This document shows positions 15,684 through 20,453 of a stretch of 64,000 nucleotides of DNA, piece by piece. Position numbers and translations under genes: made by a program. Position 1 is the first letter of the stretch. Each line of letters opens with the position of its first letter. The notes beneath the pieces were generated by a model. The model was not told where the DNA came from and made no database searches. It saw only the letters and a list, made by a program, of their open reading frames with translations. Origin of the DNA: an uncultured Verrucomicrobiota bacterium (GTDB lineage: Bacteria > Verrucomicrobiota > Verrucomicrobiia > Limisphaerales > UBA9464); assembly GCA_903907995.1 (NCBI GenBank), contig CAIVQH010000010.1, positions 1 through 64,000 on the forward strand, written 5' to 3'.

Positions 15684-15767
15684 ATGTCTGACCTCATCTA
15701 TCTCGCCGCCATGCTGCTCTTCTTCGTGGCCGCCGCGCTCTATGCGCGCTGGTGCGAAGAACTCTGA
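15684..15767 (+). CDS. 27-residue single-TM leader protein of the kdp operon
   Basis: This ORF starts at ATG 15684, has an AAGGA ribosome site 9 bp upstream, and ends at TGA 15767. The product is one hydrophobic helix (LAAMLLFFVAAALYARW) followed by CEEL. It ends 9 bp before kdpF. Tiny hydrophobic ORFs of this type directly upstream of kdpF are something I recall from other genomes, where they are usually unannotated. A role as an additional small Kdp subunit, parallel to KdpF, is inferred from position and shape only. Confidence 0.7.
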   Translation: MSDLIYLAAMLLFFVAAALYARWCEEL

Positions 15768-15776
15768 AGGATACCT

Positions 15777-15860
15777 ATGGAAACCCTCATCGTCGGCGTC
15801 ATCGCCCTGCTGCTCTTCATCTACCTGTTCGTCGCCATGATCTGGCCCGAGAAGTTTTAA
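15777..15860 (+). CDS. kdpF: KdpF, small subunit of the K+-transporting ATPase
   Basis: A 27-residue single-helix protein: METLIVGVIALLLFIYLF, then VAMIWPEKF. The ending with a tryptophan, proline and phenylalanine (W-P-E-x-F) is the KdpF signature. KdpF stabilises the KdpABC complex in the membrane. A GAAGGA ribosome site precedes the ATG, and kdpA starts 9 bp after the stop. Confidence 0.93.
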   Translation: METLIVGVIALLLFIYLFVAMIWPEKF

Positions 15861-15869
15861 GGAACCACC

Positions 15870-17786
15870 ATGCACTCTTCCGACTGGCTGCAACTGGCCA
15901 TCTATATGGCCGCGCTCCTGGCCATCACCAAGCCGATGGGCCTCTACCTCATGCAGGTGCTGGATGCCAATGGCCGCACCTGGCTCGACCCGGTGATCCG
16001 CCCGTTCGAACGGCTCACCTACCGGGTGATGGGCGTGGACCGCACCCGGGAACACGGCTGGAAGCAGTACACCTTCGCCATGCTGCTTTTCAGCCTGGTG
16101 AGCTGCGTCTTTACCTACGCGATCCTGCGGCTCCAGCACCTGCTGCCGCTCAACCCGCAGGGGCTCGGGCCGCTTTCGCCCGACCTGGCCTTCAACACCG
16201 CCGTCAGCTTCACCACCAACACCAACTGGCAGAGCTACGGCGGCGAGGGGACGATGTCCTACCTCTCCCAGATGGTGGCGCTGACCATCCATAACTTCGC
16301 CTCGGCCGCCACGGGCATCGCCATCGCGGCGGCGTTGGTGCGGGCGATTGCGCGGAACTCGATGGCGACGCTGGGCAACTTCTGGGTCGATCTGGTCCGC
16401 ACCACCTACTATCTGCTGCTGCCGCTCTGCCTCGTCTTCGCGGTCGTCCTCGTATCGCAGGGCATGATCCAGAACTTCAACGGCTATACGAAGGCCAAGC
16501 TGACCGAGCCGTACACCATCCAGGTTCCCAAGCTGGATGACAAAGGCCAGCCGGTCACCACCAACGCGCCCGTGCTGGTGCAGGCGCCCAAGCTGGACGC
16601 TGCGGGCAAGCCGGTGCTGGCCAATGGTGTGGCCGTCATGCTGGACGTGCCGAAGCTCGACGAGAAAGGCCAGCCGATGACCACGAACCTGCCGGTCATG
16701 GTGGATCAGGTGGTCGATGAGCAGGTGATCGCCCAGGGGCCGATGGCTTCGCAGGTCGCGATCAAGATGCTGGGCACCAACGGTGGCGGCTTCACCAACG
16801 CCAACGCCGCGCATCCCTTTGAGAACCCGACTCCGCTGTCCAACTTCCTCCAGATGCTCTCGATCTTCGCGATCGGCAGCGGCCTCACCTACTACCTCGG
16901 CCGCATGACGAAGAACCAGGCGCACGGCTGGTCGGTCTGGGGCGCCATGATGGCGATGTTCCTCGCCGGCGTGCTCGTCTGCTGGTGGGCCGAGGCGCGG
17001 GGCAATTCCATTCATCAGGCGCTCGGCCTGGTCGCCACGGATGGCAACATGGAGGGCAAGGAAGTCCGCTTCGGCATCTTCAACAGCTCCCTGTTTGCCG
17101 CCATCACCACGGCGGCCTCCTGCGGCGCGGTGAACGCCATGCACGACTCCTTCACCGCCATCGGCGGCCTCGTACCGCTGTTCAACATCGAGCTGGGCGA
17201 GGTGGTCGTCGGCGGTGTCGGCGCGGGCCTCTACGGCATGCTGGTGTTCGTGGTGCTCGCCGTGTTCATCGCCGGCCTGATGGTCGGGCGCACGCCCGAG
17301 TACCTAGGCAAAAAGATCGGCGCTTACGAGGTGAAAATGGCCATGCTCGCGTTGCTGGTGCTCACGCTCAGCATCCTCGGCTTCAGCGCCTGGGCGCTGG
17401 TCAGCCAGTGGGGCCTGGCCGGCCTGAACAACGCCGGGCCGCATGGGCTCAGCGAGATCCTCTACGCCTTCAGCTCGGCCACGGGCAACAACGGCAGCGC
17501 CTTCGCCGGCCTCACCGCGAACACGCCCTGGTACAATGTCACCCTCGGCCTCGCGATGCTCATCGGGCGCTTCCTCATGATCGTGCCGATCATGGCGCTG
17601 GCCGGCTCGCTGGTGCGGAAGAAGATTTCGCCGCCGAGCGCCGGCACGTTCCCCGTCTCGGGCGGCACGTTCATCCTGCTGCTCGTCGGCACGGTGCTGC
17701 TCATCGGCGCGCTGAACTTCCTGCCCGCCCTGGCCCTCGGCCCCGTCGTTGAGCACTTCCTCACCGCCCAGGGCAAACTGTTCTAA
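15870..17786 (+). CDS. kdpA: KdpA, K+-translocating subunit, with a repeat insertion
   Basis: The 638-residue channel-like subunit of the high-affinity KdpFABC potassium pump. Selectivity-filter regions of the four repeats are visible: NTAVSFTTNTNWQSYGGEG near residue 111, KMLGTNGGGFTNANAAHPFENP near 300, the region around MHDSFTAIGGLVPLFN near 425, and SATGNNGSAFAGL near 537. About ten membrane helices are expected. KdpA is usually about 560 residues. The excess is explained by an insertion of three related ~20-residue units at residues 219-280, between MIQNFNGY and QGPMASQVAIKM, in a non-cytoplasmic loop just before the second filter. An AAGGA ribosome site precedes the ATG. Confidence 0.96.
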   Translation: MHSSDWLQLAIYMAALLAITKPMGLYLMQVLDANGRTWLDPVIRPFERLTYRVMGVDRTREHGWKQYTFAMLLFSLVSCVFTYAILRLQHLLPLNPQGLGPLSPDLAFNTAVSFTTNTNWQSYGGEGTMSYLSQMVALTIHNFASAATGIAIAAALVRAIARNSMATLGNFWVDLVRTTYYLLLPLCLVFAVVLVSQGMIQNFNGYTKAKLTEPYTIQVPKLDDKGQPVTTNAPVLVQAPKLDAAGKPVLANGVAVMLDVPKLDEKGQPMTTNLPVMVDQVVDEQVIAQGPMASQVAIKMLGTNGGGFTNANAAHPFENPTPLSNFLQMLSIFAIGSGLTYYLGRMTKNQAHGWSVWGAMMAMFLAGVLVCWWAEARGNSIHQALGLVATDGNMEGKEVRFGIFNSSLFAAITTAASCGAVNAMHDSFTAIGGLVPLFNIELGEVVVGGVGAGLYGMLVFVVLAVFIAGLMVGRTPEYLGKKIGAYEVKMAMLALLVLTLSILGFSAWALVSQWGLAGLNNAGPHGLSEILYAFSSATGNNGSAFAGLTANTPWYNVTLGLAMLIGRFLMIVPIMALAGSLVRKKISPPSAGTFPVSGGTFILLLVGTVLLIGALNFLPALALGPVVEHFLTAQGKLF

Positions 17787-17798
17787 CTCCCGCCTTCC

Positions 17799-19868
17799 AT
17801 GACCTCCAAAGCTACCTCCCTGTTTGACGCCAAGATCGCCGGCCCCGCCGTGGGCGAGGCCTTCCGCAAGCTCGACCCGCGCCTGATGGTCAAGAACCCG
17901 GTGATGTTCGTGACGCAGGTCGGCGCCGTGCTCACCACCGTGGGCATCTTCACGGCGACGGCCGATCGCGGTTTCATCGCGCAGCTCGCGGTGTGGCTCT
18001 GGTTCACGGTGCTCTTCGCCAACTTCGCCGAAGCCGTGGCCGAGGGCCGCGGCAAGGCGCAGGCCGACAGTCTCCGCAAGGCCCGCAAGGACACGATGGC
18101 CCGCCGGCTCCGCGACGGGCGCGAGGAACGCGTGACCGCACCGGAGCTGGTGAAGGGCGACCTGGTCGTCTGCGAGACCGGCGATGTCATCCCCGCCGAC
18201 GGCGAGGTCATCGAGGGCATCGCGAGTGTGGATGAGGCGGCCATCACCGGCGAGTCGGCACCCGTCGTCCGCGAGAGCGGCGGCGACCGCAGCGCCGTCA
18301 CGGGCGGCACCAAGGTGATCAGCGACTGCATCGTCATCCGGGTGACGTCCGAGAAGGGCAACACCTTCCTCGACCGCATGATCGCGATGGTCGAGGGCGC
18401 GAAGCGGCAGAAGACGCCCAACGAGATCGCCCTCACCATCCTGCTTTCGGCGCTCACCCTCGTGTTCCTGCTGGTGTGCTTCACACTGAAGCCGTTCGGC
18501 ATCTACTCCGCCACGGTGTTCTCCGTGCCGGTGCTGATCGCCCTGCTGGTGTGCCTGATTCCTACCACCATTGGCGGCCTGCTCAGCGCCATCGGCATCA
18601 GCGGCATCGACCGGCTCATCCGCCGCAACGTGATGGCGACCAGCGGCCGGGCCGTGGAGGCCGCCGGCGACATCGACGTGCTGCTGCTCGACAAGACCGG
18701 CACCATCACGCTCGGCAACCGCATGGCCAGCGAGTTCATTCCCGCGCCCGGCGTGACGGTGGAACGGCTCGCGGATGCCGCGCAGCTCGCCTCGCTCGCC
18801 GACGAGACGCCTGAGGGCCGCAGCATCGCCGTGCTGGCGAAGGAAAAGTTCCAGCTGCGCGGCCGCGAGGTGGCCGACACGCACGCCAAGTTTGTCCCCT
18901 TCACCGCGCAGACGCGCATGAGCGGCGTGGATCTGGACCCGAGCACCGCCGCACCGGCGGGGAAGAGCCCGCGCCAGGGGGATGGAGTTCGCCGCATTCG
19001 CAAGGGCGCGGCGGATTCGGTGCGCCAGTGGGTGCTTAACCAGGGCGGCAGCTATCCCGACGCGGTGGCCCGCACGGTGGAAGAGGTCTCCCGCCAGGGT
19101 GGCACGCCGCTGGTCGTGGCCGATGGCGGCGAGGTTCTCGGTGTGATCCACCTCAAGGACGTGGTCAAGGGCGGCATCAAGGAACGCTTCGCCCAGCTCC
19201 GGAAGATGGGCATCCGCACCGTGATGATCACCGGCGACAACCCGCTCACCGCCGCCGCCATCGCCGCCGAGGCAGGTGTGGATGACTTCATGGCCCAGGC
19301 CACGCCGGAGCAGAAGCTCAAGCGCATCCGTGACGAACAGGCCGCCGGCCACCTGGTGGCCATGACCGGTGACGGCACCAACGACGCGCCCGCACTGGCG
19401 CAGGCCGATGTCGGCGTCGCGATGAACACCGGCACGCAGGCGGCGCGCGAAGCCGGCAACATGGTCGATCTCGACAGTAATCCGACGAAGCTCATCGAGA
19501 TCGTTGAGATCGGGAAACAGCTCCTGATGACGCGCGGCTCGCTGACCACCTTCAGCATCGCCAACGACGTGGCCAAGTACTTCGCCATCATCCCGGCGAT
19601 GCTGATGGTCACCTTCCCTGCCATCGCGCCGCTGAACATCATGCATCTGCAAAGCCCGAACAGCGCGATCCTCAGCGCCATCATTTTCAACGCGCTGATC
19701 ATCATCGCGCTCATCCCCCTCGCCCTGAAGGGCGTCGCGTACCGGCCCGTCGGCGCGCTTGCGATCCTGCAGCGCAATCTCCTGATTTACGGCCTGGGCG
19801 GCATCCTGCTGCCCTTCGCCGGGATCAAGGTCATCGATGTCGCCATCACCTCACTCCACCTCGTTTGA
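17799..19868 (+). CDS. kdpB: KdpB, P-type ATPase subunit of the K+ pump
   Basis: A 689-residue P1A-type ATPase that hydrolyses ATP to drive K+ import through KdpA. The phosphorylation motif DKTGTIT has its aspartate at D298, TGES lies in the actuator domain near residue 150, and [18 protein letters not shown] near residue 525 is the hinge motif. [17 protein letters not shown] in TM4 is the KdpB version of the ion-path motif. The length is normal for the family. The gene starts 12 bp after kdpA and ends 3 bp before kdpC. Confidence 0.97.
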
Positions 19869-19871
19869 TTT

Positions 19872-20453
19872 ATGAAAACCTTCCTCTCTGAACTTCGTGG
19901 CGCCGTCATGGTCACCCTGGCTCTGGCGGTGGTGACCTGCGGACTCTACCCGCTCGCCGTCTGGGGCATCGCGCAGGTGGCCTTCCGGGACAAGGCCAAT
20001 GGCAGCCTGATCGTGGAACACGGTGTGTTGCGCGGCTCACGGCTGATCGCCCAGGCCTTCATCGGTGAAAAATATTTCCACCCCCGCCCCAGCGCCGCCG
20101 GGGCCAACGGCTACGACGCGACCAGCTCCGGCGGGAGCAACTTTGGCCCGACCTCGCAGAAGCTGAACGACGCCATCAAGGACCGCATCGCCACCTATCG
20201 CACGGAGAACGGACTGAAGGAAGGCACTCCGGTGCCTGCCGATGCGGTCACCGCCTCCGCCAGCGGCCTGGACCCGCACATCAGTCCCGCCAACGCCGAG
20301 CTGCAGATCGCCCGGGTCGCCAAGGCCCGGAACCTGCCGGTCGCGAAGGTGCGGGAGCTGGTGGCGGCCAACACCGCCACGGCGGATTTCAGCATCTTTG
20401 GCGATGCGGGTGTGAACGTCCTGGAACTGAACCTCACGCTCGACCGTCTGTGA
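19872..20453 (+). CDS. kdpC: KdpC, K+-transporting ATPase subunit C
   Basis: 193 residues. One N-terminal membrane helix (about 10-32) is followed by a periplasmic domain with NGSLIV, GSRLIAQAFIGEKYFHPRPSAA, TSGGSNFGPTSQKL-type sequence, and DPHISPANAELQIARVAKAR, all KdpC signatures. KdpC bridges KdpA and KdpB and affects ATP affinity. Its TGA overlaps the GTG of the following small ORF. Confidence 0.97.
   Translation: MKTFLSELRGAVMVTLALAVVTCGLYPLAVWGIAQVAFRDKANGSLIVEHGVLRGSRLIAQAFIGEKYFHPRPSAAGANGYDATSSGGSNFGPTSQKLNDAIKDRIATYRTENGLKEGTPVPADAVTASASGLDPHISPANAELQIARVAKARNLPVAKVRELVAANTATADFSIFGDAGVNVLELNLTLDRL

Follow-up and report, generated by a model that had tools for sequence, protein, structure and literature searches.

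A three-unit periplasmic loop in KdpA of an uncultured Verrucomicrobiota bacterium and its apparent exchange between KdpA backbones

The KdpA protein encoded in the window (the whole stretch of 64,000 nucleotides analysed here, from an uncultured Verrucomicrobiota bacterium) is an otherwise ordinary KdpA bearing an enlarged loop, in which three units of about 20 residues follow the first helix of the second filter repeat and precede its pore helix. This three-unit loop is a real and conserved variant of a common KdpA loop. The explanation that we favor, with modest confidence, is that it is a beta arm whose three units were derived from one, that it has been exchanged between KdpA backbones as a cassette, and that it serves as an accessory contact surface. 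The apparent exchange between backbones is the surprising element and goes beyond what the initial annotation of this DNA had proposed. KdpFABC serves as a model of how a channel became part of a pump, and no settled role has been assigned to its periplasmic side; a KdpA loop that falls into length classes, is fixed in length, and is seemingly mobile offers a natural experiment on that side.

The kdp operon and the enlarged loop

The kdp operon lies on the forward strand in the order 27-codon mini-ORF, kdpF (15777..15860; PF09604, 35.2 bits against a cut-off of 21.2, and TIGR02115), kdpA (15870..17786, 638 aa), kdpB (17799..19868; TIGR01497, 1040.3 bits, cut-off 527.9), and kdpC (19872..20453; NF001454, 220.8 bits, cut-off 178), with a kdpD-like sensor gene farther downstream. 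The window's KdpA exceeds both curated models of its family (PF03814, 764.3 bits, cut-off 22.6; TIGR00680, 710.9 bits, cut-off 387.7), its partners kdpF, kdpB, and kdpC are all present next to it, and the encoded KdpC, at 193 aa, is of ordinary length. The four filters of KdpA have the conserved stretches TNTNWQ, GTNGGG, SCGAVN, and NNGSAFAG. In the alignment with Escherichia coli KdpA, the TNTNWQ, GTNGGG, and NNGSAFAG stretches are identical and the remaining one reads SCGAVN in the window versus SCGAVI in E. coli. Residues 290-307, which span the pore helix region and the second filter, are encoded at 16737..16790; GTNGGG comprises residues 302-307, and Gly305 corresponds to Gly232 of E. coli. 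The E. coli KdpA of KdpFABC (PDB 5mrw, 6hra, and 7nnp) has the same channel fold, filter motifs, and operon partners, and a VIA-align comparison with the model of the window's KdpA gave Z scores of 51.8-53.6 with 556 residues aligned.

The whole loop, delimited by the anchors F203 and G290 with 86 residues between them, is encoded at 16476..16739. Sequence comparison by phmmer matches E. coli KdpA through residue 209 and resumes at residue 284 (204 and 211 of the E. coli chain). The 74 residues in between (210-283; 16497..16718) replace 6 residues (205-210) of the 557-residue E. coli protein, which has no repeat units there, and make the loop 68 residues longer. Within the unmatched segment, comparisons of DNA repeats and of unit identity delimit unit 1 (residues 219-238; 16524..16583), unit 2 (residues 239-259; 16584..16646), and unit 3 (residues 260-279; 16647..16706). 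They read VPKLDDKGQPVTTNAPVLVQ, APKLDAAGKPVLANGVAVMLD, and VPKLDEKGQPMTTNLPVMVD and are 20, 21, and 20 residues long, unit 2 having one residue more (Gly253). Both the phmmer gap and the position of the units agree with the initial annotation, which had described a three-unit insert at these coordinates of KdpA, and homology to KdpA of known structure bears out its assignment to a loop on the periplasmic side, adjacent to the second filter.

The structure of the window's KdpA was predicted with AlphaFold2 from an alignment of 73 sequences (the window and 72 of the 74 readable rows from named genomes, L055 and L085 being omitted), with a mean pLDDT of 86.3 and a pTM of 0.85. The loop is predicted to be all beta (block pLDDT 81-93 across residues 201-290), and confidence is lower for the filter stretch at residues 301-320 (60-62). 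It is placed between helices 171-196 and 292-303, the latter leading into GTNGGG. Two strands form the predicted stem (residues 206-220, 16485..16529; residues 277-288, 16698..16733), and between them are repeat strands at residues 230-234, 236-240, 257-261, and 271-275, each unit having a five-residue turn. A similar stem is predicted for the one-unit protein L029 (strands 207-220 and 238-248), and in these models the extra units appear to be located at the end of a hairpin that was already present. Beta solenoids, among them the left-handed beta helices, consist of parallel coils of equal length stacked on one another. As in such folds, the window's loop has a period of 20-21 residues and the predicted strand breaks recur at the same unit positions; however, an antiparallel meander fits the strand string equally well in this comparison, which concerns the secondary-structure string alone, and the prediction is thus compatible with a small stacked solenoid and a meander alike. 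In whole-model fold searches, the top ranks go to KdpA and its relatives within the same K+ transporter superfamily, a result that concerns the chain as a whole.

Loop length classes among KdpA proteins

Loop length was taken as the number of residues separating the positions equivalent to F203 and G290, and it was determined for 174 distinct KdpA sequences, drawn from relatives as well as named bacterial genomes. KdpA matches were found in 77 of 293 genomes of the window's order and in 60 of 337 genomes of its phylum, and loci were retrieved for 30 of the phylum matches, the window included. Six of the 80 named-genome loci gave no loop by script; three of these (L030, L059, and L104) were then readable and three were not. 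Loops of 47 residues are the most frequent (79 proteins), followed by those of 86 (29) and 18 (27) and by single proteins with 67 and 71, and the remaining 37 are spread over sixteen other lengths; these counts are not natural frequencies, since the named-genome sample, the 80 top matches out of at least 588, is skewed toward the query.

The 47-residue class spans Pseudomonadota (for example L057 and L092), Acidobacteriota (L094), Nitrospirota (L073), Thermodesulfobacteriota, and Verrucomicrobiota (L029). Its members share with the window the position of the loop, the D-x-x-G turn motif, and a predicted two-strand stem, but usually have two closely spaced turns (69 of 79), whereas the window has three turns 20-21 residues apart in 86 residues and therefore falls outside this class. 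The repeat motif had been described as absent from ordinary KdpA. This is not the case, since at least one D/N/G-x-x-G turn is found in all 79 loops of 47 residues and the form PK-x-D/G-x-x-G-x-P/A/V occurs once in 30 of them, as in PKLDAAGQPLL (L092) and PKMDAQGNPLK (L057). The initial annotation had also named ordinary KdpA with the same loop as grounds against its proposal, and such proteins exist in part: one unit is often present, and three units in 86 residues were seen only in the window's order. Nearly all 18-residue loops (26 of 27) lack a D/N/G-x-x-G turn.

All 29 rows of the 86-residue class belong to 13 families of the window's order, and none of the rows read from other orders has a loop of this length. 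Three turns are present in 26 of these loops and two in the other 3, only 5 of the 29 show the full PK form in each of the three units, and 12 of the 86 positions are invariant throughout. Because 29 distinct rows over 13 families have an identical loop length, an assembly artefact is unlikely; an assembly error, which had been put forward as a possible source of the repeats, was ruled out by these independent genomes. Within the window's genus, the loop has 86 residues in two genomes, 47 in one, and 18 in two (a different KdpA lineage), and three further genomes have no KdpA match. Intermediate loops outside the three-unit set were seen in L176 (67 residues, a member of another family in the class), L032 (71 residues, a Spartobacteria MAG), and L030 (read by eye). 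Those of L176 and L032 have the same position and motif as the window's loop but a shorter unit spacing.

Searches for the loop outside KdpA gave no relative in the window's own genome at E 10. With a loop profile against 58 genomes, every match below E 0.05 was at a KdpA locus, and matches elsewhere had E values of 0.054 or worse. The best match among PDB sequences had an E value of 0.71, and no Pfam family exceeded its cut-off. KdpA structures matched in the PDB correspond to E. coli-type chains of 557 residues, which do not have the loop, and among the titles and opening lines of abstracts listed for KdpA and KdpFABC, none describes this loop.

Age of the units and history of the loop

The repetition is visible in the DNA, where copies of the units are 74-77% alike over 35-57 nt and a 35-nt family has spacings of 60 and 63 nt, although Tandem Repeats Finder reported no array at the unit region at a score of 30. 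The initial annotation had attributed this to tandem duplication. The likeness of the copies stands, but a duplication is not recognizable in the present gene: units within one protein are 0.46-0.57 identical, versus 0.46-0.56 for non-equivalent units of different proteins, while equivalent units across proteins are 0.58-0.74 identical. Codon identity at shared residues is likewise near background (0.49-0.53 within a gene and 0.46-0.47 between genes). These values exclude a recent tandem duplication, and the DNA-visible repeat is mainly conserved protein sequence combined with biased codons. Since likeness within a protein is no higher than between proteins, the duplication of the units is older than the divergence of the three-unit genes. 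A one-unit loop, common in KdpA, would thus have been extended to three units before the present three-unit genes diverged, and its length would then have been fixed at exactly 86 residues.

Phylogenetic trees of the KdpA core, constructed without the loop, have the three-unit genes scattered among one-unit genes, with at least 11 changes of loop type over 171 rows (3 of the original 174, whose cores fall short of 400 aa, were excluded). Five of these changes are forced by well-supported branches in a tree where 47 of 168 inner branches are weak. Monophyly of the three-unit genes was rejected by the AU test on trees without the loop, both overall (p 4.9e-31; 62 rows, 27 vs 35) and within the main clade (p 1.9e-4; 49 rows, 23 vs 26). 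Between a deep lineage (L016, L127, L172, and L173) and the main three-unit genes, identity is 0.455 in the core and 0.602 in the loop. By segment, identity between deep and main genes is 0.39 in helix 171-196 and 0.54, 0.65, and 0.71 in the three units; the corresponding unit identities within the main clade are 0.70, 0.58, and 0.75. Separate accretion of units in the two groups is disfavored because, in 93 of 100 deep-main pairs, the units correspond best when kept in the order 1-2-3. Part of the likeness between deep and main loops is general, since main one-unit loops, too, have an identity of 0.48-0.51 with deep loops over residues 206-238 and 260-279, and codon identity at shared residues is only slightly raised in the loop (0.513, versus 0.453 in the core).

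At the nucleotide level, the window and L004, a 47-residue gene of the same genus, are 0.90 and 0.87 identical in the flanks and 0.63-0.71 in the alignable loop; for L109, an 86-residue gene of another family, the values are 0.83 and 0.83 in the flanks and 0.67-0.83 in the loop. Summed over stem sites, 24 of 25 main-clade rows favor other 86-residue genes over the nearest 47-residue gene, in a comparison where the core preference for the 47-residue partner is built in by the choice of partner and where selection on loop type could mimic exchange. The window's own stem sites are near balance (332 for the 47-residue partner and 356 for 86-residue genes). Recombination is the simplest reading of this conflict between loop and core. 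Exchange within the conserved codons on either side would have carried the loop, as a cassette, from one KdpA backbone to another, even where the cores of the two lineages are no more than about 45% identical.

Strictly vertical inheritance, in which a three-unit loop is ancestral and was shortened to one unit or none many times without exchange, appears unlikely. Loss of units through deletion between repeats is a common event, and L169 (46 residues), sister to the deep three-unit rows, has a single unit that resembles a shortened three-unit loop. Further, the 86-residue gene L123 pairs with the 47-residue gene L029, and because the two stems are alike, with no mosaic pattern in any of 24 comparisons, units were gained or lost inside a native stem in this case, which accords with vertical descent and counts against exchange there. 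However, the loop changes faster than the core within the main clade, where its identity exceeds that of the core in only 12 of 300 pairs, and yet it is the more alike of the two across the deep split (88 of 100 deep-main pairs). Most 47-residue loops are, moreover, of the type found in other phyla and not cut-down three-unit loops, which also argues against repeated shortening.

Both KdpA lineages coexist in three genomes (G032, G123, and G273). One locus of G032 (L171; contig 109, 9000-25500) has two kdpA genes of different lineages arranged tail to tail about 7 kb apart, both bearing an 86-residue loop. Recent gene conversion within the two-lineage genomes is unsupported, as the loop pairs from the same genome (L016-L009, 0.65; L172-L114, 0.69; L173-L118, 0.63) are not the most alike.

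Possible roles of the arm

On the periplasmic side, the loop connects helix 171-196 with the second filter's pore helix. The arm may lie close to the mouth of the filter and to KdpC's periplasmic domain, where it would act as an accessory contact surface and not as a part of ion conduction. A role outside ion conduction is suggested because unit-less KdpA proteins with the same filter motif are common. Such a surface could stabilize KdpC or dock another component of the cell envelope. One article (PMC6255902) places the periplasmic domain of E. coli KdpC near the filter, mentions that it had been proposed as a pore cap, describes KdpC as immobile between states, and expresses uncertainty about its role; another (PMC9651954) states that the function of KdpC is still unknown. 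KdpC shows no length change that follows the loop, with median lengths of 197, 194, and 192 aa beside 86-residue loops (25 proteins), loops of 35-48 residues (68), and shorter loops (22), single cases being truncated. Among main-clade KdpC proteins (20 vs 20), no residue was clearly associated with loop type, the best value being reached in 56 of 1000 label shuffles. KdpC was accordingly set aside as a co-evolving partner of the loop. An electrostatic funnel for K+ was ruled out by the median net charge of the loop, which is -1 in the 86-, 47-, and 18-residue classes alike, and a rule of odd unit numbers based on strand parity was dropped in view of the two turns of most 47-residue loops.

The initial annotation had proposed that the loop caps the pore, folding over the filter mouth or KdpC and modulating access of K+. 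Its position adjoining the second filter, its confidently predicted beta fold, and the earlier proposal of KdpC itself as a pore cap are in line with this idea, but the equal charge across loop classes, the lack of co-variation with KdpC, and an immobile KdpC, contrary to gating, are not; a regulating cap is possible but unsupported, and we consider it improbable. Still harder to accept is neutral growth of a linker, a surface loop that tolerates extra units and has no function. The unit-less 18-residue KdpA proteins (27 of 174) and the decayed repeat sequences of L010, L012, L013, and L015 would be expected of such a loop. Nonetheless, a length of exactly 86 residues and 12 invariant positions in all 29 rows make a neutral linker less likely, and the confident predicted fold also speaks against it, leaving this reading very improbable. 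An arm with an accessory contact role remains the preferred account.

A broader proposal, which we regard as speculative and rather doubtful, is that the arm is a portable periplasmic domain, moved by recombination and useful to the cell, for example by anchoring Kdp to some further envelope component or by allowing escape from a loop-binding ligand. If true, a loop cassette crosses two lineages with cores about 45% identical, which coexist in some genomes, and the ligand escaped would be one that binds periplasmic loops of inner-membrane proteins. The apparent swap of a three-unit loop between differing pump genes hints at a part that is useful in its own right.

The mini-ORF at the start of the operon (15684-15767, forward strand) encodes a single-helix peptide of 27 aa, MSDLIYLAAMLLFFVAAALYARWCEEL, immediately upstream of kdpF. 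It matched neither Pfam nor NCBIfam models and is possibly a small, unannotated Kdp subunit. Of 170 distinct stretches upstream of kdp, 63 contain, ahead of kdpA, an ORF with its motif (loosely defined as hydrophobic with C-D/E/Q and then L close to the C-terminus), compared with none of 679 controls. In a motif search, the deep lineage (L016, L127, L172, and L173) had no kdpF-like ORF or mini-ORF upstream. The stop codons of ORFs of this type lie a median of 99 nt upstream of kdpA, and 58 of the 63 stretches that have one also contain a kdpF-like ORF, identified by motif.
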